Positions 29,526 to 48,648 of a DNA stretch of 64,000 nt are shown here, piece after piece. The stretch is taken from the NCBI GenBank assembly GCA_000525025.1, contig JCKJ01000001.1, forward strand, positions 1,860,001 to 1,924,000, given 5' to 3'. Made by a program: the position numbers and the translations under genes. The DNA is from Methylophilaceae bacterium 11 (lineage in GTDB: Bacteria; Pseudomonadota; Gammaproteobacteria; Burkholderiales; Methylophilaceae). The notes under the pieces were generated by a model that searched no databases, had not been told where the DNA came from, and was given only the letters and a program-made list of their open reading frames with translations. Positions within the stretch are counted from its first letter, which is position 1. Each line of letters opens with the position of its first letter.

Positions 29526-30867
29526 GTTGGTTCCTTGGGATTGTGGTAATAAACATCGCACTAATTTTTGTCAGCTCGCCTTGATTCAACAAGCCGCTGC
29601 TAAACTTTAAATTGACCAGATCATTGATCAGGCTATATTGCGATTTAGTGAGCTCAAGCTGATTGCTGAATAATTTCTGTTGTGCATCCAGCACTTCAAT
29701 ATTGGTTTTAAACCCGGCAATGAATCCTTTTTGTGTACCTTCCATCGCCACACGGGATGATTTGACGGCTTGCTGATACGCATTGATGGTTTGAAACTGC
29801 GTTTCTACACTGTTGTAGTATTTGCGTACCTGATACTCCACCTCACGCGTTTTGGCGGTCAGGGATTCTTCGGCTGCTGTCAGCTTATTGGCGGCCTGCC
29901 GTACATTGGCACTTACATACCCCCCTGCAAACAAAGGCACATTCATCTGTAAAGCCACAGTTGTGGTATCAAAGCGAGAGCCCAAGGTGTTGTTACTATC
30001 ATTCTCGCTGTAAGAACGTGCACCCACCAGATCCAGTGTTGGGTAATGCCCGGCACGCCTTTTTTCGAGCTCCTGTTTTGCTACTTCAAGCGTATGTGTC
30101 GCCGCCGATATTTCTGGGTTATGTTGAGTTGCCATCCCCAGCCAATACGTCATGTTTTCTTCTTTTGGCAAACTGATGGGCAATTTAGAAACTATCAGCT
30201 CTGCCGATAACGGGCTGATTTCTCCTGTGAGTATTTGCAGCGTATTCAAATGCTCGTTCAAGTCGTTTCCAGCCTGTATGGTTTCTACATTGGCAATATC
30301 CAGATTGGTTTGCGCTTCGTTGATTTCCACCACAGTACCGCTACCTTGTGTGTATCGTTTCTCTGCTTGGCGCAGTTGTTGGCTAACCGCTGTTACCTTG
30401 GCGTTGAGCAAGTTGACCTTGGCACGTGCATACAATATCTCTAAATAAGTTGACGTGAGTTTGAGTATTAACTTTGCATTTTCTTGACTCAATAGTGACT
30501 CTTGCGCACTGACAAAAGACTTTGCACCACCGTAAATAGCCCAAGTTTCTTTATTAAAAATGGGCTGGCGCACCGTCAATCCATAATTCTCTAACCGGTA
30601 ATCTAAGTTAGTTTCTATCGCACCAATGGCGGTTTGCGTGGTTCTATCGGTAATACCACGACCACGTGAAAGCGCCATCTGCACTTTGGGGTAGAACAAG
30701 GCTTTGGCTTTATTCAACTCTTCCCTGTCGGCCTCGGTATTCACTAAGGCCGCACGGTAATCGGCATTGTGTTCCACCGCTTTTTGATACAGGCTGTTTA
30801 GGTCTTCTTCTGCCCACGCTTGCTGGCCAATACACCATAGCAATACCATGACACTGATTCGCCACAT
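29500..30867 (-). CDS. TolC-family outer-membrane channel of type I secretion
   Basis: 455 residues. A signal peptide (residues 1-19, ending QQAWA) is followed by the two repeated halves of TolC-type proteins: DLNSLYQKAVEHNADYRAALVNTEADREEL and SAATHTLEVAKQELEKRRAGHYPTLDLVGARSYSEND. Trimers form an outer-membrane barrel with a periplasmic tunnel. It is the last of four type I secretion genes downstream of the RTX protein gene, only 2 nt after the adaptor gene. Its end overlaps gspG by 26 nt, so the two secretion systems share a transcript or are coupled. Confidence 0.93.
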   Translation of the reverse strand: MWRISVMVLLWCIGQQAWAEEDLNSLYQKAVEHNADYRAALVNTEADREELNKAKALFYPKVQMALSRGRGITDRTTQTAIGAIETNLDYRLENYGLTVRQPIFNKETWAIYGGAKSFVSAQESLLSQENAKLILKLTSTYLEILYARAKVNLLNAKVTAVSQQLRQAEKRYTQGSGTVVEINEAQTNLDIANVETIQAGNDLNEHLNTLQILTGEISPLSAELIVSKLPISLPKEENMTYWLGMATQHNPEISAATHTLEVAKQELEKRRAGHYPTLDLVGARSYSENDSNNTLGSRFDTTTVALQMNVPLFAGGYVSANVRQAANKLTAAEESLTAKTREVEYQVRKYYNSVETQFQTINAYQQAVKSSRVAMEGTQKGFIAGFKTNIEVLDAQQKLFSNQLELTKSQYSLINDLVNLKFSSGLLNQGELTKISAMFITTIPRNQHETQASIQ

Positions 30868-30869
30868 CG

Positions 30870-34017: not shown

Positions 34018-35723
34018 TTGCTGGCCACCTTTCCGCTTGGTGTTTGAAAGCTGGCCAATACCTCTTTAGGTTTACCAAAACGTATCATCTGCCCTTGCAT
34101 CATCACTAGCATCCAATCCGCTACGCTCAAGATATGCTGCAGATGGCTGATGACGACAAACGTGGTGCCTTGTTGCTTCATGCTAGCAATGGCGTGATAC
34201 AGCGCTTTCTCGCCAGCAGTGTCCAGATTAGCGTTGGGCTCATCTAGCACGACCACTTTAGGCGCACCATACAATGCGCGCGCTAGGCCAATGAGTTGAC
34301 GCTCGCCACCTGAAAGATAAGCGGCCTCGCGCCCAATCACTGTGTCTAGGCCATTGGGGAACCGGCTCAGCAATTCATTCAAGCCCAATAAAGTCACGAC
34401 GTCATGCATCGCCTGTAGATTATGCGCACCAAACCTGCAAATATTCTCGGCAATCGTACCGTCGAACAAATCGACTTCTTGTGATAAATAGCCAATGTGT
34501 GGCCCTAGCGATTGCTTGTTCCAAGCATAGACATCGACGCCATCTAAACGCACACGACCGGAAGTGGGCGGCAATAAGCCCACCAGTAATTTGCCCAGTG
34601 TAGTTTTGCCAGAGGCTGATGCACCTGCAATGACGAGCACATTGCCCGGTGCTAATTGAAATTGCACATTGCGGATAAATAGCGCATGCGACAAACTTTC
34701 TATTGCATAGCTCACATTGTCCACTGTGACTTCACCGCTGGGGGCTGGCAATGTCATGCCTGTCACGGGTTTTTCTGCCTTGGCAAATAAGCTTTCTAGC
34801 CGGATATAGGATGCTCTGGCTTGTACCAGCATTTTCCAGTGGCTGACCAATTGCACCAAAGGCGCCAGCACGCGCGCAGCCAGAATGGAGGCCACAATCA
34901 TCATGGCCCCACCATTGAGCAGTTCACCCGCGATCACCAAGTAACACGCCACGCCTAAAATCACACTGCTTTGCAGCGTTTGTAAAAACTTGGAGATAGC
35001 CGCATTTTTACCAGCCAGCTCAGAAGCCTGTGCCTGATTCCATAAAAAGCCGTGTTGGCTTTGCAACCACTTTTGCTGAATAGGCGCCAGCATATCCATA
35101 ACTGTCACAACATCGCTATGCTGTGTCACGCTACTAAAATAACGCTGGGATTCAATGGCATGCTCGTTCGCCAGTTTCATTTGCGGCTCTATATGCAATT
35201 GATTATTGAGCGTAATGAATAACTGAATCGCTAGGCCGAGTAGGGTTAACACACCTAATACCGGGTGAATTAAAAAGACCACCACTAAAAAAATCAAACA
35301 GAATGGTGCATCCATCAGGCCTAAAAACGCAGAAGAATTTAATGTGTTTTTAAGGCTGGAGAAATCGGAAAAGACTTGCTGAATAGGAAAAGCTGGATTG
35401 CTTAACTTTGCGGCAAAACTGCTTTCGAACAACCTTGCCTGCAAGCTTTGTTCAAAGGTTTTTGCTGCGGCCTGTAGCATTTTTCTGCGCTGCCATTCTA
35501 GTGCTTCCATCACTACATAAATAAAGGTGACCAGCACAGTGAGCATTGCTAACGTAGTGATATTGCGGCTGTTGATGACGCGGTCATACACCTCCAACAT
35601 ATACCAGGAGGGTGCCAGCACCATTAGGCTAGTAGAAAAGCCAAACACAAATACTTTGCGCCAAATAGGCCAAAGCAAAGGCAAGGCTTGCTTGATCGTC
35701 TGCGGTTGCGACAACATGTTCAC
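34014..35723 (-). CDS. Type I secretion ABC transporter (PrtD type), first of two
   Basis: 569 residues with the same architecture as its downstream neighbour: membrane domain, then Walker A GASASGKTTLGK, signature LSGGERQLIGLARALY and Walker B VVVLDEPNANLDTAGE. The two proteins share motifs but differ widely over the membrane part, so the duplication is old. It begins 59 nt after the RTX protein gene, with a strong hairpin in the gap. Its substrate is most likely that RTX protein. Confidence 0.93.
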   Translation of the reverse strand: MNMLSQPQTIKQALPLLWPIWRKVFVFGFSTSLMVLAPSWYMLEVYDRVINSRNITTLAMLTVLVTFIYVVMEALEWQRRKMLQAAAKTFEQSLQARLFESSFAAKLSNPAFPIQQVFSDFSSLKNTLNSSAFLGLMDAPFCLIFLVVVFLIHPVLGVLTLLGLAIQLFITLNNQLHIEPQMKLANEHAIESQRYFSSVTQHSDVVTVMDMLAPIQQKWLQSQHGFLWNQAQASELAGKNAAISKFLQTLQSSVILGVACYLVIAGELLNGGAMMIVASILAARVLAPLVQLVSHWKMLVQARASYIRLESLFAKAEKPVTGMTLPAPSGEVTVDNVSYAIESLSHALFIRNVQFQLAPGNVLVIAGASASGKTTLGKLLVGLLPPTSGRVRLDGVDVYAWNKQSLGPHIGYLSQEVDLFDGTIAENICRFGAHNLQAMHDVVTLLGLNELLSRFPNGLDTVIGREAAYLSGGERQLIGLARALYGAPKVVVLDEPNANLDTAGEKALYHAIASMKQQGTTFVVISHLQHILSVADWMLVMMQGQMIRFGKPKEVLASFQTPSGKVASK

Positions 35724-35745
35724 GAGGGATAACTATTTAACATGT

Positions 35746-35775
35746 GGGTGCAGGCAAGTTGCCTTGCCCGCACCC
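35746..35775 (-). terminator. Strong hairpin between RTX gene and its transporter genes
   Basis: GGGTGC-x-GGCAAG pairs with CTTGCC-x-GCACCC around a 4-nt loop, 12 pairs with one internal mismatch, 7 nt after the RTX stop codon. No T-run follows, so it is better read as a partial terminator or an mRNA stabiliser than a full stop. It would let the secreted protein be made in excess over the ABC/HlyD/TolC proteins encoded downstream. Confidence 0.6.
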
Positions 35776-35782
35776 TATCGCA

Positions 35783-38119
35783 TTAAGCAATAATAAAGTC
35801 AGAAGTAGACAAGGTACTTACGCCTGTCAACACTGCAATATTCACTGCCGCACCGGCACCATTACCATCCGCATCGTAACTCAGCGTTTTGCTCGTGGTG
35901 TTGTATACCAGATAGTCATTTGCATCTTGAGCAGTACCGCTTGCATTCACACGCAGCATGCTTGAGTTAAAGCCAGCCAATTGGCTGTACTGATCCAAAT
36001 GCAATTCCAACTTATCCGTACCACGGGTAAAGTCAGTAATCGTATCTACTCCTGTCAGGTTAAAAGCTGTGTTGGTATACGTTTGCACGCTAGTAGATGA
36101 ACCAGTGACGACTTGCTCATACACTTTGCCAAATACAAATTTATCCGCACCGCCATTACCAGTCAATGTATCGTTACCGCCATTGCCTACAAACACATCG
36201 GCTTTGCTGGTACCAATAAATTTCTGTGTATTAGCGTTACCTTCAAAACGTAAACCGTTAGTCGTTACACCAGAAGCATCGACAACTACGTTATTGATGG
36301 TGCCGCTGTTATTACCCAAGGTATTTGATAAGTCAGAAACAGAGCTATTGGCACGATGGTAATAGTGGTCATTCAATAATTGAAGCGCGGAGTCTTCAAC
36401 ATTTAAACGGCCCACAGTACCGCCCACTTGCACTACTTCCATGGATTGGAAGTTAGCGTTATTGAGCACAATAGTGCCATTGGCTTGTGTGTTAGCGCCA
36501 ATGCCGGTAGTAATACGCAATGTATCTACACCTGCACCACCCACAATCAAATCATGGTTAGCGCCGGTAGCAATCCACTCTTTATTACCATCATCCGCTT
36601 TAGAAGTTGTGCCTTGTACGCCACTGCCAAAACCACCGATGAGGAAAATGTCGTCACCATCTTCACCATACAATTTATCGGCACCACCGTGCCCCACTAA
36701 CAAATCATTACCATCGTTAGCGTAGTATGTGTCATCACCTAAGCGCATCGTTGCATTGTCTACGCCTTCACTACCATACACAGTCTCGCTGGCACCAGCT
36801 GATTCATTGGCACCATCAATGCGCGTATAGCTACCAGCTTCACCTTCGCTGGCATCGTAAATCATATCGACGTTATGGAATAAATTAGCAACAGAATAGT
36901 CGTCAAACTCAAGCGCAGCGGCATCATAAGTGACAGGCGTTGCCCCTACAATAGTCGCTGCTGGCTCAAATGTGGTTTCTTCAAACTCTAGCTCTAAGGT
37001 TACAGACTCAGTAGCGCCACCGGCAACGCCGTAGATGTGGGTACCTGGATTTAAAAATTCCAAGTCTAAAGATTCACCATTATTTAGCAGTTGTTCAGCT
37101 TCAAGCACAATGTTGACACCATCAGCTAACTCAATACGCTCAATCCCAGAAAAAGCAATATTCTCAAACTCGCCACTTTCAGTAAATTCGATAGTGTCTA
37201 CTGCGTTATACCCTGCAATAGTAGTAGCAAACGTACTAATTGCAGAAGAGCCTGGTCGGGTCACGATGTTTAAACGTACATCAGTTTCAACCTCTTGCGC
37301 CATTTCTAAATCTTCTAGCTCTACCCTAACTCCAGTAGTTGTATCCAATACCGTTAGCTCACCAGTTGCTTCATCCTCTGCCAAATCTACATATCGAGCC
37401 TCTTCTCCTTCGTTATCCAGCCCTGAAATACCAGCATTAATTACCGATATGCCTTCTATTTCATCACCAATAATAAAAGTGTCATTACCATCAGCACCAT
37501 ATAAAAAATCATTACCATTACTAACGATAAATAGGTTACCTACGACCCCTTCATTACCTTCGCTACTTGCTCCACCATCTAAATAATCGTCACCATCTCC
37601 ACCATCCAGAATATCATCACCATCGCCAGAGATAAGCTGATCATTTCCTGCCCCACCTAATAACAGGTCTGCATCAACTCCGGAGGTAATAAAGTCGGCA
37701 CCATCGCCACCAATTACAATGTTATTTCCATCACCTGCATCGATAGTGTCATCGCCAGTTCCACCATTGATTATATCAATACCTGATCCGGCTAAAATAA
37801 TGTCATTACCTGCACCACCATCGAGAAGATTCGTTCCATTGTTAGTAGTGCCATTCCCGGTAGAAATAAAATCATCTCCATCACCGCCATAAATGATATC
37901 GTTGCCTGTACCACCGATTAAGGTATCGTCACCTGTTCCACCATCAAGATAGTCATTTCCAGCACCACCATCAATAAAATCATTACCACCTAAACCATAA
38001 ATGGTATCGTTCCCATCTCCTCCATAAATTGTATTATCTAAATTATTCCCGGTTACATTGTCATTACTTGATGTACCTGTGTAAGATATTTCAGTTGAGT
38101 TGAAAGTTTTATTAGCCAT
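35783..38119 (-). CDS. RTX calcium-binding secreted protein
   Basis: 778 residues without a Sec signal. Residues about 15-215 are a dense array of glycine-rich nonapeptides (GGDGNDTIYG, GGAGNDYLDG, GGTGDDTLIGG and so on) that bind Ca2+ as parallel beta rolls. A second set lies near 455-505 and a third near 660 (GNGGNDTLTGNGGADKFVFG), followed by DTITDFTRGTDKLELHLDQ, the usual C-terminal block before a type I secretion signal. The remainder is acidic and beta-rich, with no enzyme motif that I recognise. Most RTX proteins carry repeats only at the C-terminus; here they open the protein. By position beside its transporter it resembles S-layer proteins such as RsaA; a secreted matrix role is likely but unproven. 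Confidence 0.9.
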   Translation of the reverse strand: MANKTFNSTEISYTGTSSNDNVTGNNLDNTIYGGDGNDTIYGLGGNDFIDGGAGNDYLDGGTGDDTLIGGTGNDIIYGGDGDDFISTGNGTTNNGTNLLDGGAGNDIILAGSGIDIINGGTGDDTIDAGDGNNIVIGGDGADFITSGVDADLLLGGAGNDQLISGDGDDILDGGDGDDYLDGGASSEGNEGVVGNLFIVSNGNDFLYGADGNDTFIIGDEIEGISVINAGISGLDNEGEEARYVDLAEDEATGELTVLDTTTGVRVELEDLEMAQEVETDVRLNIVTRPGSSAISTFATTIAGYNAVDTIEFTESGEFENIAFSGIERIELADGVNIVLEAEQLLNNGESLDLEFLNPGTHIYGVAGGATESVTLELEFEETTFEPAATIVGATPVTYDAAALEFDDYSVANLFHNVDMIYDASEGEAGSYTRIDGANESAGASETVYGSEGVDNATMRLGDDTYYANDGNDLLVGHGGADKLYGEDGDDIFLIGGFGSGVQGTTSKADDGNKEWIATGANHDLIVGGAGVDTLRITTGIGANTQANGTIVLNNANFQSMEVVQVGGTVGRLNVEDSALQLLNDHYYHRANSSVSDLSNTLGNNSGTINNVVVDASGVTTNGLRFEGNANTQKFIGTSKADVFVGNGGNDTLTGNGGADKFVFGKVYEQVVTGSSTSVQTYTNTAFNLTGVDTITDFTRGTDKLELHLDQYSQLAGFNSSMLRVNASGTAQDANDYLVYNTTSKTLSYDADGNGAGAAVNIAVLTGVSTLSTSDFIIA

Positions 38120-38149
38120 TTCTTAATATCCTTTAACTAAAATAAACAC

Positions 38150-38222
38150 GCATTTTTGGCTGCCTGCAACACCAATTTACCTTAATCTTGATTAGCGCCT
38201 TGAAGTTCCAAATAGATTACGG
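38150..38222 (-). repeat. Conserved leader element, copy 1 (upstream of RTX gene)
   Basis: This 73-nt segment ends 30 nt before the RTX start codon and recurs at 40285-40356, upstream of the 39243-40253 gene, with 5 substitutions and one indel by my alignment. The proximal edge lies 30-31 nt from the ATG in both. It contains the dyad TAATC-TT-GATTA (plus strand, about 38183-38194). It could be promoter plus operator or part of a structured 5' untranslated leader. It matches no riboswitch I know. Confidence 0.85.
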
Positions 38223-38239
38223 TTAAATTCATTTTTAAA

Positions 38240-38257
38240 AATCACCTCTTAGTGATT
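38240..38257 (-). terminator. Intrinsic terminator after the 38282-39157 gene
   Basis: On the minus strand AATCAC-TAAGAG-GTGATT is followed by TTT, 24 nt after the stop codon. The 6-bp stem is short and the T-run modest, so it may be leaky. It separates this gene from the RTX gene, which would then need the leader element just downstream for expression. Confidence 0.5.
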
Positions 38258-38281
38258 GCCTCTATTCATACCAATAAAACA

Positions 38282-39157
38282 CTAGTACACCTCCACCTCA
38301 CCTGCATAAGGCACTAAACCAGAAATACTAATTTGGATTGGATTTTGTCCATTTTGACCCGTAGTTCTTAGGCGTATTGCACCTTCTTTTTCTACAGGTT
38401 CGTGATCATCACAGTTGTATTTAATATAGAACATGGATGTCATTTGACGTGTAACTCCATCAGGATCTTTAAAATTTATATCCGTTGTAAAATCTATCCA
38501 ATTCTCACTTACTGCAGCAGCATTACTATTGCTGAGCCCTATGTGTACCGGCGGTGCATTTTTCAGACTAGGTAATAATTGATTTTTTTCATATTTAACG
38601 CTGCTGTAAGTTCTTCCAGCTCGAAATAACATTTCAACATTCCCACCTTCAATATCAGCTTGAGGTTTGTAGAAGTAAGCGACTTCAACCTCCTTATTTT
38701 TAAAGCCGCCGCGCAAAATATCGTTAACCTCCCAATACTGTCCATTGGCTAATGACACATCATTCATTTGAACATGTGTTCCTAAAATACACTCTGTCTT
38801 ATCTTTATTGCGCCAAAAAGTATCCGTAATTGTGGCTACTCCAACACCATCGGTTGACCCAGTATAAGATACAGGAAGCGTCGCACCGCTTACTTGCATA
38901 CCCACCATACTAAAGCCCTCCAAAGGAGCATTCATTGGGCTAACAATTAAATTAGGCGCAGAAACTGAGCATGTATTATTTGAAGAGTCGCTAGGAGCTA
39001 GCGCCTTAGAAGTTCCGTAGTCCCCTGTCGAGTTACATGTGATATAGGCCGAATTAGAAAATCCATTCTTAGGTAATTTTACAAATCCATCTGCGGCAGA
39101 AGCTACCCCTGCACTTATAGCAATAGCGAATAATATAATCGTTACTTTTAACTTCAT
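38282..39157 (-). CDS. Exported four-cysteine protein, paralogue 2
   Basis: I do not recognise the family. 291 residues with a signal peptide (cleaved near SAA-DGF). Mature start GFVKLPKNGF, then AYITCNSTGDYGTSKALAPSDSSNNTC. It is a paralogue of the next gene upstream (39243-40253): both share T-C-N-x-T-G-x-Y-G, a pair EVNDI-x2-GGF/EVNDI-x-FAGF, AGRTYSSV/VGRSHTSV, NW-x-x-FT-x-D followed by DPDG/DEDG, and a hydrophobic-LR-x-x-GQ motif near the C-terminus, and both keep four matching cysteines. Beta-rich and secreted; it lies between a TonB-dependent receptor and an RTX secretion system. Its substrate or partner is unknown. A start at 39157 is preceded by GAGG. Confidence 0.78.
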   Translation of the reverse strand: MKLKVTIILFAIAISAGVASAADGFVKLPKNGFSNSAYITCNSTGDYGTSKALAPSDSSNNTCSVSAPNLIVSPMNAPLEGFSMVGMQVSGATLPVSYTGSTDGVGVATITDTFWRNKDKTECILGTHVQMNDVSLANGQYWEVNDILRGGFKNKEVEVAYFYKPQADIEGGNVEMLFRAGRTYSSVKYEKNQLLPSLKNAPPVHIGLSNSNAAAVSENWIDFTTDINFKDPDGVTRQMTSMFYIKYNCDDHEPVEKEGAIRLRTTGQNGQNPIQISISGLVPYAGEVEVY

Positions 39158-39183
39158 TTTAGCCTCTCAAAACTTTCAAAGTT

Positions 39184-39212
39184 AATACTGCGGAGAAAAT
39201 CCCCGCAGTATT
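39184..39212 (-). terminator. Ten-pair hairpin between the paralogous genes
   Basis: AATACTGCGG and CCGCAGTATT form a perfect 10-bp stem with a 9-nt loop, 31 nt after the stop of the 39243 gene. A long T-run is missing on the minus strand, so it may slow decay of the upstream message or attenuate read-through rather than stop it. Confidence 0.55.
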
Positions 39213-39242
39213 AAAGTAAAAACTACTTATTAAATTTAAGTA

Positions 39243-40253
39243 TTAATACAATGTAGCGCTTGCACTTTGTGGAGCATAAGTACTTGGTGTTTTAACGGTT
39301 ACCCATGGTTGTGTCTCTTGTCCTGATTGACGTAAAACAATGCCATCAGTTAATGCTGCTGGTGTGCCTGCTACTAAAGGTGTCGCATCTTTACAAGCTG
39401 CTTCAATATACATCCAAGGTGAGTATGGATCAGCTGGCGCACCATCCTCATCAGGACCGCCTGATAAATCTAACGTAAAGATGACCCAATTAGGGCTCAG
39501 TGCACCTGCTTGCTCTCCAGCAGTTGCCGTATTTGGATATGGCTCAGTGCCCAATGGGCTAGGGCCATTAATCTGCGTGCTAGCAGCTGGCGCACTCGTT
39601 GTAATAGGTCTCAATACAAACGTTGAGGCTACAGATGCCCCACCCACGGCATTTGAATGCATTTGCACGCTTGTATGACTGCGACCCACTCGATAAACCG
39701 GTGATGATGTACCTGCACCAGAAAAGTAATAACCTGCATTCACGCTAGAATTTGTACTGAATCCAGCAAAAGCAATATCATTCACTTCTAATGTATTAGT
39801 ACCTGCACGCGTTCCATCATAATCAAACGTACTAGTCGCATCCATCTGGAATTGTGTGGCGTAAACGCACATTTTTTGATCAGATGTTCTAAAGGTTTTC
39901 TGCCATCTTTTTGCTAATGTTGTGCCATTAGCATTCACTACTGATGCATTGACGGATTGAATCAATGTATAACCAGATACAGGACTTGCATTCACACTGG
40001 TAAAAGTAGCCGGCGTATTCAAAAACACTGCACAATCATTATTTGCACCAGCACTTGGAGCAGTTGGAGTTTGCGCCCCATAATTGCCTGTAGGATTGCA
40101 AGTCACGTAGGGCGTAGTACCCGCTGGTTGATTAGTCCCTGCACTTACTGCAAGACCAGCTGATGGCAATGCAACCAGACCCGTTGCCATTACTTGTGCT
40201 GACAACATAGTCATCGCACTTAATACTGCTAGCTTCAATGTAATATTTTTCAT
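39243..40253 (-). CDS. Exported four-cysteine protein, paralogue 1
   Basis: 336 residues with a clear signal peptide (LAVLSAMTMLSAQVMA, cleavage near MA-TGL). It is the longer paralogue of 38282-39157, with the same motif order (YVTCNPTGNYG, LEVNDIAFAGF, VGRSHTSV, NWVIFTLDL, IVLRQSGQ) plus an insertion rich in Pro, Thr and Ser (about residues 205-250). Four cysteines are at equivalent places. No enzymatic motif is visible. The leader element shared with the RTX gene lies 31 nt upstream of the ATG, and AGAGGA is the ribosome site. Downstream of the TonB-dependent receptor but in its own transcriptional setting. Confidence 0.78.
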   Translation of the reverse strand: MKNITLKLAVLSAMTMLSAQVMATGLVALPSAGLAVSAGTNQPAGTTPYVTCNPTGNYGAQTPTAPSAGANNDCAVFLNTPATFTSVNASPVSGYTLIQSVNASVVNANGTTLAKRWQKTFRTSDQKMCVYATQFQMDATSTFDYDGTRAGTNTLEVNDIAFAGFSTNSSVNAGYYFSGAGTSSPVYRVGRSHTSVQMHSNAVGGASVASTFVLRPITTSAPAASTQINGPSPLGTEPYPNTATAGEQAGALSPNWVIFTLDLSGGPDEDGAPADPYSPWMYIEAACKDATPLVAGTPAALTDGIVLRQSGQETQPWVTVKTPSTYAPQSASATLY

Positions 40254-40284
40254 GTTAGTCCTCTGTTTACGTTAAAATATCTAG

Positions 40285-40356
40285 GCATTTGTGGCTGCCT
40301 GCAATACCAATCCACCTTAATCTTGATAGCGCCTTGAAGTTCTAAATAGATTACGG
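40285..40356 (-). repeat. Conserved leader element, copy 2
   Basis: Second copy of the 73-nt element at 38150-38222 (about 92% identical, one base shorter). The missing base breaks the TAATC/GATTA dyad seen in copy 1. The spacing to the downstream start codon is the same. The 85 bases beyond it, back to the receptor stop at 40442, show only a weak 5-bp hairpin at 40371-40388. Confidence 0.85.
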
Positions 40357-40441
40357 ATGAATACTTTACTGGGCAGTTACAAATGCCCTTTACTAAGTGT
40401 TAATTCTCTAGCCTAGCTTCCAATTAGTAACCATTCAATAA

Positions 40442-43400
40442 TTAGTCAAAACTTTCATCTGGCTTAAATTGATAAGTCAATGTCACGTATGCCGAGCGTG
40501 GTGCACCTAACCCCAAAAAGCTGGCACCTTCCCACTCCGTACTGTTGTAGTTAAAACCGCTTGTTCCGATCGCACCGTTGATTGATGGAGAAAATGCATT
40601 CAAACCCAAGCGTCCGGCACTGGCATACTTTTTATCAAACAGATTGTTAATTAATAAGCCAAAAGTCCACTCCGGGCTTAGCTTATAGCTGGTTTGAAAA
40701 TTAAACACAGTGTAACCAGGTGTTTTACCCCCTCTGTAATTCGCATGCGGCACTTCACATGCAACTTGAGTTGTAGTCCCGGTGTTTGGATCAAATAAAT
40801 TACACAGGGCTATAGTTGGGGGAACAGGTCCTGCCTTATGTTTGTTATTTTCATTGCCACGTACAAACGCACTAGAATGCGTAACGGCGTTTAACCCAAC
40901 CACCCACTTATCCGTTAACTCATAGCTAAAATTAGCATTTAGGTTATGAAGTGGTATGCCTGGCATTCGGTTGCCAGATTTAACTTTAATTTTTTGATAG
41001 TCGCTTACATATACCAATTTCCCATCAATAACTTTATAGTCATTGCCAGCAAGATTAGTGGGGTCTGGAATAACCGTGCCGGCCGAGCTGTTATAAGGAC
41101 TATCTAGTCTAAAGGCTGATTGAAAGGTGGCATCGGTAAGCGCATAATTCAAACCGAAACTAGCTTTACCTATTTTGCCTTTAAACCCCATCTCTATCCC
41201 TTGTCGACGGGTATCTCCGATATTCTGGAAAAAACTTCGACTTGGTGCCACGCTGACAAAATAGATATCGTCTTGCAAATCAGTACGGTAAACGCTAGCA
41301 TTCCACTCTATATAGCGAGTCCAACTCCCTCTTGCACCAACCTCAAAAGTTTCCGAACGCACTTGTTTTAAATAGGGGTCACCTGCCATGGTGCTTGGTA
41401 AGTTGCAATTGCGCCTTTGCACAATAGAACGCTCTTGATAGACTTGCTCACCATTGACAAGCGCGCCTTCAACTGGGATCAACGTATCATCAAGGGCACA
41501 ACCCAACTCAATTACTGTAGGTGTTCTAGCACCACGATTCCAATTGCTATATATATTTAAAGCTTCGGTAGCTTGCCAAGTGGCACCTAATGCAGGGTTA
41601 AATGAGCGATAATGAAATGTTTCCCTCGCATCACCTACTAAAGAGCGATTTCTAAAATCCTCATTACCTATAGGACTAATTAGATTTTCTGTTGGAATAC
41701 CTGTTGGGCATTCTGTACCTTCAACCACGCCATTATTGTTAGTATCTGTACACAACGTGAAAGCGTCCAAGATATTAAAAAAAGTGCCAGCACCTGCACT
41801 TGATGAGCGGTTAACAGCTAGTAGATTACTAATAGTTGTGTAGTTGTAGCGGGCAGCGGCAGTTATGCTCAAGTTTTTAGTAGGTGCCCATGTTTCACTT
41901 GCATACAAGCTTTTTGTGATGGAATCTCCCTTAAAATCATTTAAGCTAATCGCATGATCTTTGTCGCGCGCGTAAAACTCATACCCTAATTGGTCTGGTG
42001 CGGCGGCACCATTGCGCTTACTATCCAAAAGGCCTAAATACTCAGCACTTTTATAACTAGCGTCAGCTTTATTTATAGCGCCCCCCACCATAAATTTATG
42101 TTGGTCTAGGTTCCAATTAAGCTGCAGAGAACCCCCTGTACCTATCTGGTCAATTTGAGTATTAGTGATTAATGCAGTAGGCGTACCATCTATATAACCT
42201 GGATTCACTCCTCGTGTTCCTGTATAAATATCTGCTTGTCCACCATCTCTGGCAATTGGAATAAAATCACCCGGCACCGTTGGGCTAGGCTGGAGCACGG
42301 CTACTCCATAAGGAACACCTCCGACGAATAGCTGTCTATAGCTTGGGTCTAGTATTGCTAGATTTGCCACATCCAATATTGCAAGTTCGTGATAAAAACC
42401 AACAGCATCCGTATAGTTGGCACCTTGAATGCTATTAGAATTTGGGTTAGGTTTAAATTGATTGGCTGTAAATCCATTTGATGGATGCAATCCACCATAT
42501 GCTTGTGGGTCTACGGTAGAAGACGTAATTGCGTCAAGCGCTTTTCTTTTCCAAACACCCAGCGCAAATTGGTAAAACTGATCTGATAATGCACCATTGA
42601 ATACACCAGGTTGAGTTGAAGCGGTAAATTCAAATGGACTTTGCCTTGGATCGTAAGTCCAATTTAATATATTACCTGGTACGACTGGATTTCCGAATCC
42701 ATCATTTGCAGGGGCGACCTCGGCCTGTGCTGCAAGGGGGTTACCAAAAGCATCCAGTGCTCTAGTACCAAAATCTGTGCCAATCGCTAAATTATTGATA
42801 CAAGGATCATTGGGATCAAAGCATACATTGCCGTTTTTATCTAAAGGATTGCCATTAATGTCTGCTGCAACGTTATATGCCACATTATTGTAATCTGGCA
42901 GACCATCTTTATTAATATCTTGAAAACCTGCTAGCACCTGCCTACCAGTGGCTCTATCAGTTGCATATCCTTCAAAATCATTATTAACATCTGTAGAACG
43001 AGATTTACGCTTACTATTTCGATGGTAAACCATGCCTGAAATGTTAAAGGTGTCTGAAACATCCCAAATGCCACTCAATTGAAACTGCAATAGATCGTTC
43101 TTGCTTTCGTCAGGCGAAGTGTAAACCTGACTACGGTTTTCAGCCGCCATTTGTTCTGGCAACAAGCCATTGCCAGTAAGTTTATTACCCGCATATAGCA
43201 TGGATAAGCCCAAGCGAGCACGCTCATTCTGCCACTCCGCCTTACCAAATACCTGATTGACTTTACTCGGTGAATTATCACGCCAGCCATCTTCTAGAAA
43301 AAAGTTGCCAGAAGCAAAACCGGCAATCACTCCGTTATTACCACCCGCAGATATTTGCAGTTGTTTGCGCCCATATGAGCCTGCAAGCACTTCTGCATCT

Positions 43401-44239
43401 AAACTCTTTCCGTCGAATCCGCTTTTGGTACGCATGGTTAGTGCCCCACCCAGCGTGCCTAACCCAAATATAGGATTGGAACCAGGAAAAATATCCAAGC
43501 TACTTAGTGCATTCATTGGAATCATGTCCCAATTGACAACATCACCAAAGGGCTCATTGACTCGAATACCATCCAAAAATACTGAAATGCCCTGTGCAGT
43601 ACCTAATTGAGGAGATGCTGTGAACCCACGATAGTTAACATCCATTTGAAAGGGATTGCCTTGGTAATCATTCACACTGACCGACTGCAACTTACTATTC
43701 ATTAAGTCCGCAATACTGAGCGAATGCGATTCTTTAATTTCTCTTGCAGTGATGCTTTGTACGTTACCGGGGATCTCTTCTTTGGTGAGGCCTAAGCCTG
43801 GCAACGGCCCAACATCATAAGAACGCTTGGCACGGACACTGATTTGATCAAGCTGAATGTTCTTGTCACCACTTGAGGCTTTCTCTATATAAGCATTACC
43901 CTCATCAATTTTAGCTGCAAGGCCACTGTTCGCCAGAATGCGTTGTAGCGCTTCTTTGCGAGACATACGACCTTTCACCGCAGGGGATGTTTTACCCAAT
44001 ACCAAATCGCTAGGGAACGCGATATTGAGATTAGTACTTTTGCCTAATTGATTGAGCGCAGCCGCTAGTGGCTGGCTAGGTATATCAACTGTTACGGGCA
44101 CAGCAAATACAGCGTCTTGGTCTGCTGGCAATTTGGTATTCAGTTCTGCAGCTTCTACGTGAAATTGCACAAATATCCAACACACGCACACCACTACGAT
44201 GGCTAATATGGTTTTGTGAACCGCGCCCAAGATATCCAT
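40442..44239 (-). CDS. Large TonB-dependent receptor with N-terminal signalling (STN) domain
   Basis: 1265 residues, well above the usual 700-900. A signal peptide/anchor stretch (residues 8-32) is followed by an STN domain (about 52-108: VTVDIPSQPLAAALNQLGKSTNLNIAF), a plug (GNVQSITAREIKE to near residue 300), and a long 22-strand barrel ending in APRSAYVTLTYQF. An STN domain with an adjacent FecI/FecR pair is the arrangement of transducing receptors such as FecA that switch on their own genes when ligand binds. Large extracellular loops contain two EF-hand-like calcium motifs, DINKDGLPDYNN at 441-452 and DTNNNGVVEGTE at 832-843. The ligand is unknown. Confidence 0.92.
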   Translation of the reverse strand: MDILGAVHKTILAIVVVCVCWIFVQFHVEAAELNTKLPADQDAVFAVPVTVDIPSQPLAAALNQLGKSTNLNIAFPSDLVLGKTSPAVKGRMSRKEALQRILANSGLAAKIDEGNAYIEKASSGDKNIQLDQISVRAKRSYDVGPLPGLGLTKEEIPGNVQSITAREIKESHSLSIADLMNSKLQSVSVNDYQGNPFQMDVNYRGFTASPQLGTAQGISVFLDGIRVNEPFGDVVNWDMIPMNALSSLDIFPGSNPIFGLGTLGGALTMRTKSGFDGKSLDAEVLAGSYGRKQLQISAGGNNGVIAGFASGNFFLEDGWRDNSPSKVNQVFGKAEWQNERARLGLSMLYAGNKLTGNGLLPEQMAAENRSQVYTSPDESKNDLLQFQLSGIWDVSDTFNISGMVYHRNSKRKSRSTDVNNDFEGYATDRATGRQVLAGFQDINKDGLPDYNNVAYNVAADINGNPLDKNGNVCFDPNDPCINNLAIGTDFGTRALDAFGNPLAAQAEVAPANDGFGNPVVPGNILNWTYDPRQSPFEFTASTQPGVFNGALSDQFYQFALGVWKRKALDAITSSTVDPQAYGGLHPSNGFTANQFKPNPNSNSIQGANYTDAVGFYHELAILDVANLAILDPSYRQLFVGGVPYGVAVLQPSPTVPGDFIPIARDGGQADIYTGTRGVNPGYIDGTPTALITNTQIDQIGTGGSLQLNWNLDQHKFMVGGAINKADASYKSAEYLGLLDSKRNGAAAPDQLGYEFYARDKDHAISLNDFKGDSITKSLYASETWAPTKNLSITAAARYNYTTISNLLAVNRSSSAGAGTFFNILDAFTLCTDTNNNGVVEGTECPTGIPTENLISPIGNEDFRNRSLVGDARETFHYRSFNPALGATWQATEALNIYSNWNRGARTPTVIELGCALDDTLIPVEGALVNGEQVYQERSIVQRRNCNLPSTMAGDPYLKQVRSETFEVGARGSWTRYIEWNASVYRTDLQDDIYFVSVAPSRSFFQNIGDTRRQGIEMGFKGKIGKASFGLNYALTDATFQSAFRLDSPYNSSAGTVIPDPTNLAGNDYKVIDGKLVYVSDYQKIKVKSGNRMPGIPLHNLNANFSYELTDKWVVGLNAVTHSSAFVRGNENNKHKAGPVPPTIALCNLFDPNTGTTTQVACEVPHANYRGGKTPGYTVFNFQTSYKLSPEWTFGLLINNLFDKKYASAGRLGLNAFSPSINGAIGTSGFNYNSTEWEGASFLGLGAPRSAYVTLTYQFKPDESFD

Positions 44240-44477
44240 TCTTCTTCCTCAAAAACTATATATTTTTCTATTTATCGTTTGAGGAAAGAAAACCCTGACG
44301 TGGATAATAAAAAATAATTACTTTTTTATTATTTATATAAAGTAGCTAGAGGTTTTTTGCTAGAGGATTGCCCAGCATTTTTCGCCATGTATGCAAATAC
44401 AGCAGCTGGATAAAGGTTGAAACGTGATTACTATTAGGTAAGGGGTGGTTACAGCGTAGGGGCGATCTGACTAAAAT

Positions 44478-45476
44478 CTAAAGCTTCGTGTTTGCGCTCT
44501 CAATGACAGTCTGTTTAGTTTGATTGTGCACAATTACCGGAGCAATATTGGGTAGCCCTTGTAAGAACTCTTCTGCATCTTGCACGCTGACAATAGCAGA
44601 AATATTATGAGAAGACTGTCCGTCAGCCACCACAGGCCGTGCGCGGTAGCGCGACAAAGTGTCTGCAACCTCATAAGTATCCGCCCACTCAAATACTAGC
44701 TTACCGTTCACAAACGCAAAGGCATCTGCTGCACGGCGCTGTGTAATAACCGCCGTCTGATTAGGATAGACTTCTACTACTTGACCATTAGTTAGTAGTT
44801 TGGCGTTATCTGCAGCCTCTGACTTAGGCATAATGGGCTCAACACGCACGCTACCGTGATCTACGCTAATCCGCACCAGTTTGCTTAACTTGTTGACCGC
44901 AAAGCGCGTACCCAATACCGTTACTTTGGCCAGCTCAGTCTCTACTACAAAAGGGCGATTAGCATCTTTGGCAACATCAAAAATTGCTTCTCCGCGCATA
45001 AGATGCACGTGCCGCTGATGCCGATAAAATTTGACTTCCATTTGACTATTACCACTTAAGGTTACACGGCTGCCGTCATCTAACGTACGCATGGCTATAT
45101 TGCCTACCGGCGTATCTGCAACAATTTGGGCGGTAGGTTGTTGCAGCCATATCTCGTATTGTTTGTTTGCAAACAATGCAAATAATCCCACAGCACAGAT
45201 TGCGACTACATGAGCAATGTGCTTGACCACTTTTTGGCGTTTGGCGGATTTTTCCAGAAATGCATTTTGCTCCATTGCATCAGCTAACTTTGCTAACGAT
45301 TTGGGCGATGCCAATTGATCCATGGTACTGCAGATGCTTTCGTACTCGGCTTGATGCACAGGACTCGTCGTTAACCAGCGCTCAAACTCCCCCCGCTCGG
45401 GTGCATCCGGTTCTGCATCTCGCAAACGGATATACCAAAGCGCTGCGGCTTCGCTGGACTGAATGGCTTTCGACAT
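44478..45476 (-). CDS. FecR-family anti-sigma factor
   Basis: 332 residues. The N-terminal DUF4880 sigma-binding region (SSEAAALWYIRLRDAEPDAPERGEFERWLTTSPVHQAEYES) is followed by a membrane helix (about 90-107, VVAICAVGLFALFANKQ) and a periplasmic FecR domain (TPVGNIAMRTLDDGSRVTLSGNSQMEVKFYRHQRHVHLMRGEAIFDVAKDANRPFVVET). It senses the STN domain of the receptor and controls the ECF sigma factor encoded 7 nt upstream. The 238-bp gap that follows (44240-44477) should hold the sigma-dependent promoter of the receptor gene; it also contains a weak AT-only hairpin. Confidence 0.94.
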   Translation of the reverse strand: MSKAIQSSEAAALWYIRLRDAEPDAPERGEFERWLTTSPVHQAEYESICSTMDQLASPKSLAKLADAMEQNAFLEKSAKRQKVVKHIAHVVAICAVGLFALFANKQYEIWLQQPTAQIVADTPVGNIAMRTLDDGSRVTLSGNSQMEVKFYRHQRHVHLMRGEAIFDVAKDANRPFVVETELAKVTVLGTRFAVNKLSKLVRISVDHGSVRVEPIMPKSEAADNAKLLTNGQVVEVYPNQTAVITQRRAADAFAFVNGKLVFEWADTYEVADTLSRYRARPVVADGQSSHNISAIVSVQDAEEFLQGLPNIAPVIVHNQTKQTVIESANTKL

Positions 45477-45483
45477 GGTTAAA

Positions 45484-45984
45484 CTATAGCAGTTTTTGTT
45501 TGGCCGCGCGCAAATCCAACATGGCGCGAATCATATGCTTCTCTACCATATTGAGACTAATGCCAAGCTTGTCTGCAATCTCTTTTTGTTTCAGGCCATC
45601 CACATGAAACAGCCAAAACACTTGCCGACATTTTTCAGGTAGTAAATCAACGATACGTTGCAAATAGAAAAGTTTTTGCTTGGTTTCATACAACTGCTCT
45701 GGTGAATAATCCGTTGTACTTTCTTCTAGCGCCACTTCATCATAAGGCACAAACTTAACCTCTTGGCGGTATTGATTCACCAATAAATTGTTCACAATGC
45801 CGTTTAGGTAGGCTTGTGGCTCAGTATCGCGGTACGGGCTCCTAGAAACCGCAAAATAGACAATGGCATCTTGCAAAATATCAAATGCTTTATGTTTGCA
45901 AAATGTATGCCTGCTGATTCGGTTCAGCACATCCGAATAAGCCCATTGAAGATCTAAACCACTCCAAGTAAGTGCTTCGCTCAT
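45484..45984 (-). CDS. FecI-type ECF sigma factor
   Basis: 166 residues with region 2 (AYSDVLNRISRHTFCKHKAFDILQDAIVYFAVSRSP) and region 4 (LLPEKCRQVFWLFHVDGLKQKEIADKLGISLNMVEKHMIRAMLDLR) and nothing between or after, the minimal ECF form. The region 4 helix with KEIADKLGISLNMVEKHM is typical of FecI. It probably directs transcription of the TonB-dependent receptor gene after a signal through FecR. Confidence 0.93.
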   Translation of the reverse strand: MSEALTWSGLDLQWAYSDVLNRISRHTFCKHKAFDILQDAIVYFAVSRSPYRDTEPQAYLNGIVNNLLVNQYRQEVKFVPYDEVALEESTTDYSPEQLYETKQKLFYLQRIVDLLPEKCRQVFWLFHVDGLKQKEIADKLGISLNMVEKHMIRAMLDLRAAKQKLL

Positions 45985-46252
45985 ATTCTTCTTCTATTAA
46001 AACTTAAGAGTGCTATACAAATAGCAAAAATCGCTCCCACGATCAGGCTAGATTCAAGCTACTGATTTACTTTAAGAAATTAAAAGGTACCGAGACAAGG
46101 GAAGCCAAACTGGTTATATACAACCACAAGTAAAGCAAATTGGTGGTTCCATGGATAAAAACATTCAGGTTATCTATGGCTCTGCTTAGGCTGACCATCC
46201 AATGCAGACAACCGGCATCGTAAAGTGGTATGTAAAGGATACTAATTGGCGT

Positions 46253-46280
46253 AAAAAAAGCCTTGATATTCAAGGCTTTT
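46253..46280 (-). terminator. Intrinsic terminator after tRNA-Leu
   Basis: On the minus strand AAAAGCCTTGA-ATA-TCAAGGCTTTT runs into more T, a text-book intrinsic terminator beginning 5 nt after the CCA end of the tRNA. The bases from 45985 to 46252, between the sigma gene and this terminator, contain nothing else I can support. Confidence 0.93.
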
Positions 46281-46285
46281 GTATT

Positions 46286-46372
46286 TGGTGCCCGGGGCCG
46301 GAATCGAACCGGCACGACCTTGCGATCGAGAGATTTTAAGTCTCTTGTGTCTACCAATTTCACCACCCGGGC
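46286..46372 (-). tRNA. tRNA-Leu(TAA)
   Basis: An 87-nt leucine tRNA on the minus strand with encoded CCA. The acceptor stem is GCCCGGG/CCCGGGC, the anticodon stem and loop are AGAGA-CTTAAAA-TCTCT with anticodon TAA, there is a long variable arm as leucine tRNAs have, and the T loop is GGTTCGATTCC. A possible -10 (TAGAAT on the minus strand, 46405-46410) lies 33 bp upstream. Confidence 0.97.
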
Positions 46373-46534
46373 GGGTGATTACTGCTGAATTTGTTGCGGA
46401 GCGTATTCTATCACTGTATCGCGCATTTTTACCGTAATCGGGACGATTTTTTTAATAATTTTGTCATTTATTTTCATATAAGCAAGATACAGTACGTGAT
46501 CAATAGAGATATGAAAGAGTGATAATTCTAGATA

Positions 46535-46566
46535 CAAAAAAAGCACCCTAAACTGGGTGCTTTTTT
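46535..46566. terminator. Bidirectional intrinsic terminator after the TolC-type gene
   Basis: AAAAAAGCACCC-TAAACT-GGGTGCTTTTTT is symmetrical, with T-runs on both strands. It lies 14 nt after the stop of the 46581-48494 gene (minus strand). Confidence 0.95.
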
Positions 46567-46580
46567 AAGCGGGCGTATCT

Positions 46581-48494
46581 TTATGGATTGACTAACTCAC
46601 GCAAAATCTTCCACTCGCCACTGGAGTGTTCCAACTCCAAAGTTTTATTCACGTTATCGGCAAAGCCTTTTGTAGCAATTCGCTTAGCATTACACACATC
46701 ACAGCCTTGGCTATTCTTTTGTTTTAATAGCTTATAGTTGGTCACACTATATTCTTGGTGGAATGTTGCTTTTGCCTTATCACCTTCGCAAGTCACTTGT
46801 ACATTCGACAATGCTAGGTTAATTTTCCCAGGGGAAGACAAACGTTGCTTACGTTGCTGCTCCCACGCTGTTCTTGTAAGTGGGGGCTCCGGGTTGAATT
46901 TTTCTGAGTAAGTTTTGATATAGGCGTCATAGTCTTTTTGACGCCATGCAGTTGCCCAGTTGTTCACTTGTGCGGTTACCACTTCCGGTGAACATGCACC
47001 GGCTGCGGCAGGCGCTAATGCAGTGGTTCTTTCTGTTGGTTTAATGAGCTGGCGATTAGTGACGTTGAGCGGTTTAGCATCTGCCAAAATAGCGGCTTTA
47101 TCAATTGTCACCGGTACGGCTGCAACAGCCTGACAAACAGTGGCGGCATCTACATAGTCTTCACGCTTTACTTCAGGTAAGCCTTGTCTGGCTGAGCCAA
47201 TTCTATTGACCAGCTGACCTTGCCCAGCAAACAATCTCGCATAGGCATTCATCAAGTCATATTCGGTATTGGCATAGCTACGCTTTGCCTGAAAATACTC
47301 ATTTTCTGTATCGAGCAAATCCAATAAGGTTCTTTGGCCAATATCAAATTGTTTTTGGTAAGCTTCTCTTGCATTTTCAATTGAAGCACGATGTTGATCG
47401 CGGTAAGTGATTTGCTCTTTTAATTGGCGAATATCGTTATAAGCAATGGTGACGATTTGACGCGTATCGATACAGGCTTTATCACGTAAATCATTGGAGC
47501 GATTGAGTTTTTCCAATGTTTGGCTAACAGCCGCTTTATCAGAAAAGCCATTAAACAGGTTAAAGTTCATGGTCAACTCTAGTAAATCCGCTGCGCTGGT
47601 ACTGTTCTCACCATCAGAGCTGGTACCCAAATTTTTACGCGCTTGCAAATCAAAGCGGGGTAAATAACGCGCCTCTTTGGTTTTCACTTCTTTTTGTGTC
47701 GCTTGAATATCTTCTATGGTCGAGAGCAAATCTGGATTGGAAAGATAAGCCACTTGCAATGCCTCTGTTGGGCTAGGTGCAATTTCACCTGCTACAAACG
47801 CTGGCATTTCTAGCGTTTCTGGTGGCAACTCCCCTAACAAGCGTTGTACTCTGGCAGTCACTTCATACAAATTAGTGGTTTCTGTCAGCAAGTTAGCCTC
47901 AGCTAATGCTAAACGACCTGACGCCTGCTCTAAATCCACACGTCTCGCTACGCCAGCATCTACACGCTCTTTGATTTTGTCATGATATTGCTTGTGAATG
48001 ACATAGTTGGTTTTTGCATATTCGGTGAGTTGGCGATAGCGCAACGTATCGATATAAGAGCGCACAAATTCCAGCGTAGTATTTTGCATGGCACTTTGTA
48101 ACTCGTAATACCGTACTCTTTGCGCATGTCCTAAGCGACTGACTTCATTTGGCGTTGCAAAACCATCAAAAATCATCTGTCTGAGGACTAGTTCGTTGTT
48201 GGATCTTGGAATAGCAGTACCATTACGGCGGCTAAAGCCACCATCCATATCCTCTTGCCTACGGTAGCTGCTGACAATATCCGCTTTAGGTAGATAACCG
48301 CCCTTGACCACATCGCGTTCGTAGCCCGCACCAGTGTATTCATGGTACTTGACTTGTACTTCCGGATTGGCGGAGATGACTTGCTCAACCATCTCTTTGA
48401 GCGTCGTCAATGTTTGCGACTGAGCGCTGAACGAAAACCATGAGAGTGTTGCAAATACAATAAACGGTTTCAGACTACTTATTTTTTTCATCAA
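46581..48494 (-). CDS. LapE-like TolC-family channel with C-terminal Cds6/NTF2-like domain
   Basis: 637 residues against about 450 for a plain TolC. A signal peptide (ending SAQS) precedes the two TolC repeats (residues about 30-430: MVEQVISANPEVQVKYHEYTGAGYERD, ATQKEVKTKEARYLPRFDLQARKN). After a linker the last 137 residues (from about 501) form a separate domain: VNNWATAWRQKDYDAYIKTYSEKFNPE, WEQQRKQRLSSPGKINLALSNVQV, AKATFHQEYSV, LEHSSGEWKILREL. That resembles the C-terminal NTF2-like domain seen in L,D-transpeptidases of the Cds6 kind. Directly downstream of the giant adhesin gene, it is the likely outer-membrane tunnel in which the adhesin is retained. Confidence 0.88.
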   Translation of the reverse strand: MMKKISSLKPFIVFATLSWFSFSAQSQTLTTLKEMVEQVISANPEVQVKYHEYTGAGYERDVVKGGYLPKADIVSSYRRQEDMDGGFSRRNGTAIPRSNNELVLRQMIFDGFATPNEVSRLGHAQRVRYYELQSAMQNTTLEFVRSYIDTLRYRQLTEYAKTNYVIHKQYHDKIKERVDAGVARRVDLEQASGRLALAEANLLTETTNLYEVTARVQRLLGELPPETLEMPAFVAGEIAPSPTEALQVAYLSNPDLLSTIEDIQATQKEVKTKEARYLPRFDLQARKNLGTSSDGENSTSAADLLELTMNFNLFNGFSDKAAVSQTLEKLNRSNDLRDKACIDTRQIVTIAYNDIRQLKEQITYRDQHRASIENAREAYQKQFDIGQRTLLDLLDTENEYFQAKRSYANTEYDLMNAYARLFAGQGQLVNRIGSARQGLPEVKREDYVDAATVCQAVAAVPVTIDKAAILADAKPLNVTNRQLIKPTERTTALAPAAAGACSPEVVTAQVNNWATAWRQKDYDAYIKTYSEKFNPEPPLTRTAWEQQRKQRLSSPGKINLALSNVQVTCEGDKAKATFHQEYSVTNYKLLKQKNSQGCDVCNAKRIATKGFADNVNKTLELEHSSGEWKILRELVNP

Positions 48495-48583
48495 GTGAGT
48501 TCACGGATCTTTATAACATTATAGAAATCATTAGGTTAGTAAAAAAACCTGAACTGAATATACTATACATAACTTTCCAAGTA

Positions 48584-48618
48584 AAGAAAAAGGGAGCAGC
48601 CAAATCGCGCCGCCCCCT
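48584..48618 (-). terminator. Intrinsic terminator after the giant adhesin gene
   Basis: On the minus strand AGGGGGCGG and CTGCTCCCT pair fully (9 bp including G-T wobbles) and are followed by TTTTTCTTT, 30 nt after the stop. This should limit read-through from the adhesin gene into the TolC-type gene. Confidence 0.8.
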
Positions 48619-48648
48619 CTAAAAACCATCAAACAGTGTTAAGAAATG

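Follow-up and report, generated by a model that had tools for sequence, protein, structure and literature searches.

The window, a stretch of 64,000 nucleotides from the genome of Methylophilaceae bacterium 11 (2.79 Mb, a single contig), contains a run of genes on the minus strand that extends from position 45984 down to 20374 in the order fecI, fecR, TonB-dependent receptor, P1, P2, RTX protein, type I exporter and type II secretion system (T2SS) genes. P1 and P2, collectively called P here, are paralogous exported proteins. We propose, with a probability of roughly 0.6, that this run is a nutrient-capture unit, in which the P proteins are exported by the T2SS and act as extracellular, hemophore-like partners of the receptor. 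The core of the unit consists of the receptor, a leader RNA, P and the T2SS genes. A first-pass annotation of the DNA, which had described the receptor with its extracytoplasmic function (ECF) sigma factor and anti-sigma factor, the two paralogues and the RTX protein as lying on one strand between 35783 and 45984, agrees with the open reading frames and the Pfam and NCBIfam matches. It missed the core because the secretion genes lie outside the interval given to it; its statement that the genes follow each other with no break was right and even understated, the same-strand run continuing through the type II genes to about 20.4 kb. The core features are the following, in window coordinates.

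40442 to 44239, minus strand: TonB-dependent receptor with an STN signalling domain (Pfam STN, Plug and barrel; DxNxDG-type loops at residues 441 and 832)
40270 to 40402, minus strand: leader RNA 5′ of P1 (covariance model R1, 108.6 bits, E 8.4e-23; covariation)
39243 to 40253, minus strand: P1, exported four-cysteine partner protein (no Pfam or NCBIfam match; homologues adjoin the receptor)
38282 to 39157, minus strand: P2, exported four-cysteine paralogue (homologous to P1; tracks the receptor class)
38135 to 38271, minus strand: second copy of the leader RNA, 5′ of the RTX gene (R1, 95.1 bits, E 1.9e-19; 5′ pairing element degenerate in the alignment)
29097 to 29561, minus strand: GspG, major pseudopilin (TIGR01710, 175.5 bits, cut-off 88.85; the true start may lie inside)
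27879 to 29075, minus strand: GspF (Pfam T2SSF)
26125 to 27882, minus strand: GspE ATPase (Pfam T2SSE; orthologue in the same genomes as P)

To follow these genes across the family, we used a sample of 150 genomes of Methylophilaceae and examined stretches of up to 20 kb around the P homologues. P homologues were found in 37 of the 150 genomes with P1 as the sole query and in 41 with a 50-row profile, which gave strong matches in 39; the two genomes with only weak matches (G025 and G125) were dropped, leaving 39 P genomes. The orthologue class of the window's GspE was taken to comprise matches of at least 836 bits and at least 70% identity (one 87% fragment is in G071), the next class scoring at most 747 bits and 63% identity. 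This GspE orthologue and P occurred in exactly the same 39 genomes, with an empty symmetric difference. The two genes lay within 15 kb of each other on one contig in 37 of these genomes, the other two being fragmented assemblies. At 36 of the 40 P loci the receptor gene was located upstream of P, on the same strand and at a distance of at most 4.2 kb; the exceptions were two loci at the edge of the stretch or contig (L048 and L051) and two in which the receptor lay 5 kb off on the other strand (L052 and L053). Usually the receptor was followed by one or two P genes and these by the type II genes, either at once or with the RTX gene and type I exporter in between. The gene-order comparison that the first-pass annotation had called for thus revealed a recurring unit among the 40 P loci. 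As the genera g1, g3, g7, g12, g15 and g22 each include genomes with and without the P/T2SS set, it appears to have been gained or lost as a unit more than once.

The divergence of the receptor is matched by that of P to a degree that the secretion genes do not account for. For this comparison, eight of the 40 P loci were left out, as they had no receptor, a receptor fragment or a receptor–P mid-point distance above 4.5 kb; eight more had no GspF in view, and 24 of the remaining 32 could be used. The pairwise distances of the receptor and the nearest P correlated at 0.73, and still at 0.69 after the GspF distance had been removed (24 loci, none of 999 permutations reaching this value). In 19 loci, the partial correlation was 0.63 for receptor and P (0 of 499 permutations), as against 0.18 for receptor and GspG (15 of 499) and 0.03 for P and GspG. 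The receptor–P value stayed at 0.44 in the 13 loci that have no P2. The same 32 loci fall into two receptor classes: all ten with a P2-type gene (above 190 bits) have receptors scoring at least 1169 bits against the window's receptor, and all 22 without P2 have receptors scoring at most 1113 bits.

P1 and P2 each contain four cysteines and begin with what looks by eye like a Sec-type signal peptide; they are homologous to each other (E 1.4e-12; 28–29% identity), so that their earlier description as two exported four-cysteine paralogues is borne out. No Pfam or NCBIfam model matched either protein at E of 0.1 or below, and a profile search returned no relative of solved structure. The profile search suggested in the first-pass annotation gave strong matches in 39 of the 150 family genomes but tied P to no known family. 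Outside the family, the class sample of 368 other genomes gave weak matches only, in two genomes, and P1 was not found on plasmids. The T2SS is the likely export route of P, judging from the sequences, because P has the signal peptide and the four cysteines, has no PEP-CTERM tail and was not found without that system.

A second form of the partner also adjoins receptors. Weak profile matches led to eleven regions in the family in which a different TonB-dependent receptor (846–901 residues) lies beside one to three P-related proteins; the pairing held in 11 of 11. These proteins have PEP-CTERM-type tails, confirmed by Pfam for two proteins of L087 and by NCBIfam for one of L086 and assigned by eye for the rest. 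A profile–profile comparison of P with these tailed relatives gave a probability of 99.5 and an E value of 1.5e-22 over 148 columns. The PEP-CTERM relatives thus resemble P in being homologous to it and in adjoining TonB-dependent receptors; they differ in their tail, in having no match to GspG, GspF or GspE at E of 1e-20 or below nearby (stretches of up to 14 kb), and in that no R1 leader match is listed there. The window's genome itself has such a receptor and P-relative pair at 2.28 Mb (2277001 to 2293000), adjoining genes that we named by eye as exosortase/EpsI-like and polysaccharide genes. In a sample of 331 genomes of the class, near-full-length matches to the PEP-CTERM form were obtained in the window's genome and two others, the other matches covering the tail alone. 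In the same class, two genomes from another family have a receptor-like open reading frame beside a P relative in three of four fragments, with differing tails. One partner superfamily is therefore found next to receptors in two forms, and the likely delivery system differs between them. No description of a combination of TonB-dependent receptor, PEP-CTERM protein and exosortase was found by title or abstract in the open-licence literature.

The gene set named in the first-pass annotation did not hold up as the core: the RTX gene, which 26 of the 39 P genomes carry, forms an optional insert with its exporter, and FecI and FecR are optional too. The first ABC gene follows the RTX gene at 23 of the 26 loci; two loci have the RTX gene with no exporter and one is cut by the contig end. 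The two-ABC exporter, which the annotation had counted within its interval, is present, but just outside it, at 29500 to 35723. The STN domain was not matched in eight P-adjacent receptors or in that of L053, and their stretches showed no FecR; at one of these loci (L055), genes for ExbB, ExbD, TonB and a two-component system were recognized upstream by eye. No TonB-like gene was noticed in the window's run. The optional features of the window are listed here.

45484 to 45984, minus strand: FecI-type ECF sigma factor (Pfam Sigma70_r4_2, 2.6e-14; NCBIfam sigma70-ECF above cut-off)
44478 to 45476, minus strand: FecR-type anti-sigma factor (Pfam FecR, 2.9e-19)
35783 to 38119, minus strand: RTX calcium-binding repeat protein (Pfam RTX repeats only, 10 stretches; 66–76% identity in 12 of 14 aligned relatives)
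34014 to 35723, minus strand: type I exporter ABC1, PrtD type (TIGR01842 above cut-off)
32269 to 34017, minus strand: type I exporter ABC2, PrtD type (TIGR01842 above cut-off)
30870 to 32279, minus strand: HlyD-type adaptor (TIGR01843 above cut-off)
29500 to 30867, minus strand: TolC-type outer membrane channel (TIGR01844 above cut-off)

In the mechanism that we propose, a scarce compound, which is probably a metal complex, would be imported by the TonB-dependent receptor. P1 and P2 would be exported by the Sec pathway, probably disulfide-bonded, and carried outside by the adjacent T2SS, where they would bind the compound and then either hand it over to the receptor or stay docked on it in the manner of a hemophore. 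Where FecI, FecR and the STN domain are present, the ligand on the receptor would also switch genes on. The RTX protein would be an accessory, calcium-bound surface or matrix protein, presumably the natural substrate of the type I exporter beside it. The leader, which follows the receptor gene and precedes the first P gene, with another copy ahead of the RTX gene where P2 intervenes, would adjust how much of the secreted proteins is made independently of the receptor level, either as a riboswitch or as an element of mRNA processing or stability. The paralogues had earlier been suggested to be carriers for the receptor's ligand; an extracellular partner of the receptor is indeed our best reading of P, but the carrier role goes a step beyond the gene linkage and co-divergence.

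Several points weigh against this proposal. The boundary of the GspE class was set after the score gap had been seen, and within one family, linkage together with joint transfer or loss could produce the same co-occurrence of P and GspE. The T2SS may have substrates other than P. Many receptors of the same family stand without an adjacent P. Locus L053, excluded from the 32 loci for distance, contradicts the receptor-class rule, having a P2-type score of 193 and a receptor of 965 bits. Co-divergence is not exclusive to the receptor and P, since in 19 RTX loci with ABC1 as the control the values were 0.77 for receptor and P, 0.47 for receptor and RTX, and 0.38 for P and RTX (each 0 of 499 permutations). 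The receptor–P correlation fits partners, and it could also arise if the two genes had been replaced together as a single cassette. Finally, what we say of P is drawn from genes and sequences.

The constant company of P and this T2SS (39 of 39) would also be expected if P proteins were subunits or tip proteins of the pseudopilus, of the T2SS or of a surface fibre, with the receptor as a sensing and regulating neighbour. A precedent would be PUMA3 with Hxc, for which the cited part of PMC2729926 reports that the sigma factor of vreA/vreI/vreR raises the transcripts of the hxc T2SS. We consider this improbable, as inspection by eye shows no prepilin motif in P, the co-divergence of P is with the receptor and not with GspG (partial values of 0.63 and 0.03), and the PEP-CTERM relatives adjoin receptors with no GspG, GspF or GspE match nearby. 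It is slightly less probable still that the unit makes a surface layer or matrix dependent on calcium, in which RTX and P are structural and the receptor supplies ions. The strong conservation of the RTX protein beside a type I exporter would suit such a layer, and RTX S-layers occur in a methanotroph according to the cited part of PMC13274458; however, the RTX family (E of 1e-80 or below) is absent from 13 of the 39 P genomes, and the strongest co-divergence, that of receptor and P, would be left unexplained.

That unrelated genes came together by chance we regard as very improbable. Receptor paralogues without P in the same genome would fit such an accident: the receptor belongs to a multi-copy family found in 65 of the 150 genomes at E of 1e-80 or below, and the window's genome has five further FecI–FecR–receptor modules without P in three other regions. 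Joint presence and absence and the shared leader are nevertheless hard to obtain by chance. The first-pass annotation had held that the run would be accidental if the receptor or the RTX gene mostly occurred without the paralogues. Of the 27 genomes with an RTX gene, just one lacks P (G134, where the RTX match has 55% identity and neither a receptor nor an exporter is in view), but the receptor often stands without P.

The leader is a conserved structured RNA with covarying helices and without an Rfam match. It precedes the P genes at most loci, and a covariance model found it in exactly the 39 P genomes of the 150. That model matches both copies in the window, which are among the sequences used to build it. 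We aligned 39 leaders after dropping two poor ones of 41 candidates. The alignment supports a long helix at the centre, in which columns 60–73 pair with columns 107–120, together with its apical hairpin; it also supports a 3′ hairpin whose loop pairs with the 5′ part. Overall, 87.6% of the cells were paired, compared with 82.1% in shuffles, and 17 of 33 pairs showed changes on both sides; the covariation score was 0.233, compared with 0.140 for shuffled alignments (0 of 500, a count that is not a probability because the alignment rows are related) and at most 0.085 for slid controls. The poorest pairs were columns 68–113 and 29–146, unpaired in 19 and 15 of the 39 sequences, respectively. Among 338 other genomes of the class, strict filters left nothing convincing, and two marginal matches (27–29 bits, E 0.005–0.008 per genome) were at about chance level. 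Rfam families, known riboswitches included, gave no relevant match in the window from 29000 to 47000 at E of 1 or below, nor in the leaders of two relatives at E of 10 or below. The earlier inference that the shared leader links P1 and the RTX protein is supported, the leader being real at both places, but it precedes the RTX gene in only four genomes (G000, G057, G081 and G035) of the 26 P genomes with RTX, which are the four loci with both P2 and RTX. Orphan leaders were observed right after a receptor gene without P (L130, 5323 to 5457; L131, 6883 to 7033) and about 800 bases from an AmtB-like gene (L133, 8931 to 9063 and 9183 to 9315); no P remnant was found at these loci.

What the leader does can be read in two ways. 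Elements that process or stabilize mRNA between cistrons are well established, and a function of this kind, raising P and RTX over the receptor with no ligand sensed, has a little under even odds. Its position after the receptor and ahead of P, as well as ahead of RTX in four genomes, agrees with this function, as does the 3′ hairpin, which is paired in 98.5% of cells. It accounts less readily for a second conserved pairing between the leader ends that competes with the 3′ hairpin: the alternative fold, in which the 5′ part invades the hairpin, has about equal covariation (0.241). On average, the energies of the two folds differ little (mean difference 1.7 kcal/mol, standard deviation 6.0), and the hairpin is favoured in 17 of 39 leaders; as weak evidence, this would fit a switch. 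A conserved covarying structure in a 5′ leader is a further feature that the RNA shares with riboswitches. One may speculate, at rather long odds, that it represents a new riboswitch class that senses the receptor's nutrient and directly controls the secreted capture proteins, so that one ligand, be it a metal such as iron or a lanthanide, or a cofactor, would be read in three ways, by receptor signalling, by RNA and by a capture protein, in a methylotroph-specific uptake system of T2SS-exported carrier and receptor. The window's RTX leader has lost the 5′ element and with it the end-to-end pairing, which weakens the argument for a switch.

The whole can be placed with systems of the secreted-carrier-plus-TonB-receptor kind; its protein family and its structured RNA are both new. 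The closest likeness is to the Serratia has operon, which encodes a sigma factor, an anti-sigma factor, a receptor, a hemophore, an exporter and TonB, as given in the cited part of PMC9249621; the window's run shares with it the order of sigma factor, anti-sigma factor, signalling receptor, secreted partner and exporter. P would take the place of HasA, yet P1 and P2 are not HasA homologues, having neither a Pfam or NCBIfam match nor a solved relative by profile. The run further differs in its T2SS beside P, its leader RNA, and a type I exporter that is optional and follows RTX. In the PUMA3 system of Pseudomonas (VreA–VreI–VreR), cell-surface signalling is tied to the Hxc T2SS (PMC2729926, in the part cited); VreA is periplasmic and has no receptor barrel, whereas the window's receptor has a barrel by Pfam and a dedicated partner protein family. 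The window's T2SS has GspG, GspF, GspE and a secretin, with the secretin below the GspD equivalog cut-off and with inner-membrane parts that are PilN/PilO-like. For Methylotenera mobilis JLW8, the cited part of PMC3728764 describes a methanol-induced T2SS island, which may or may not be the window's T2SS. Assignment of the RTX protein as an RTX toxin was rejected (NF033943, 111.7 bits against a cut-off of 1000). The first-pass annotation knew of no described system with this set, and we likewise found no description of the combination or its parts by title or abstract in the open-licence literature.

As pointers to the ligand, none of our leads is decisive. The nearest solved receptors by sequence are PqqU/YncD (E about 4e-9), followed by siderophore receptors; at 82.9 bits, the window's receptor scores far below the cut-off of the NCBIfam PqqU equivalog (1200), and the ligand cannot be transferred. 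Loops of the DxNxDG type were seen in 22 of 47 receptors, with 34 motifs as against 1.9 expected from shuffles; they occur in 10 of 10 receptors of P2 loci and in 5 of 22 of loci without P2. Those of the window's receptor, DINKDGLPD and DTNNNGVVE, are EF-hand/TSP3-like, and similar loops lie at similar positions in other P2-locus receptors. A link to lanthanides through such calcium- or lanthanide-type loops is not decisive, given the 5 of 22. A search with the Fur box consensus gave a best match of 12 of 19 positions before the window's fecI, and the means over all genes were close to those of shuffles. The palindrome TTGAGAATCAATCTCTTA, with zero or one mismatch, precedes fecI in nine genus relatives (L035, L036, L037, L038, L041, L043, L044, L080 and L081; 9 of 23 FecI genes examined) and was not found before fecI in the window. 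It may be iron-related, with a presumed likeness to Fur or ECF sites; iron control is only a lead. A TGTAAA-N13-C[AG]TCA site, which we take to resemble ECF promoters, precedes the receptor in 13 of 14 genus relatives (L034–L045 and L081).

The remaining genes of the run belong to the T2SS.

23730 to 26144, minus strand: four assembly genes (295 residues with no match, then PilN-like, PilO-like and HofP-like; weak Pfam matches below cut-off, and position)
21723 to 23675, minus strand: GspD/PilQ-type secretin with TPR and STN (Pfam Secretin, 3.4e-39; below the TIGR02517 cut-off)
20374 to 21723, minus strand: three small open reading frames taken as minor pseudopilins (Pfam N_methyl in 21232 to 21723; prepilin motif by eye in 20852 to 21238; no match in 20374 to 20901)

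At the end of the T2SS run, positions 19755 to 20321 encode a 188-residue protein of DDLSRG-type repeats without a family match. On the other side, a separate LapA-like set was recognized by eye at 46581 to 63892, with a 2792-residue Calx-beta/RTX adhesin, LapG- and LapD-like genes, an ABC/HlyD exporter, and a TolC protein that has a C-terminal Cds6_C domain. This TolC protein (46581 to 48494) is weakly matched (25–33 bits) by a protein of 1126–1199 residues that lies between the receptor and P at three other loci (L054, L061 and L070) and looks autotransporter-like by eye in L054. At four loci (L046, L047, L050 and L063), a TPR protein of 723–770 residues, whose C-terminal part looks glycosyltransferase-like by eye, is located between P and gspG; the L046 protein was the one scanned.

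It is an open question how methylotrophs acquire metals and cofactors that are scarce. The genes described here offer a testable unit for it, composed of a receptor, a new secreted partner family in T2SS-linked and PEP-CTERM forms, and a new structured RNA whose gene context is defined. This RNA is an orphan, and the genes downstream of it point to its signal. If our proposal is true, it would add type II secretion to the routes by which Gram-negative bacteria send out nutrient-capturing proteins.

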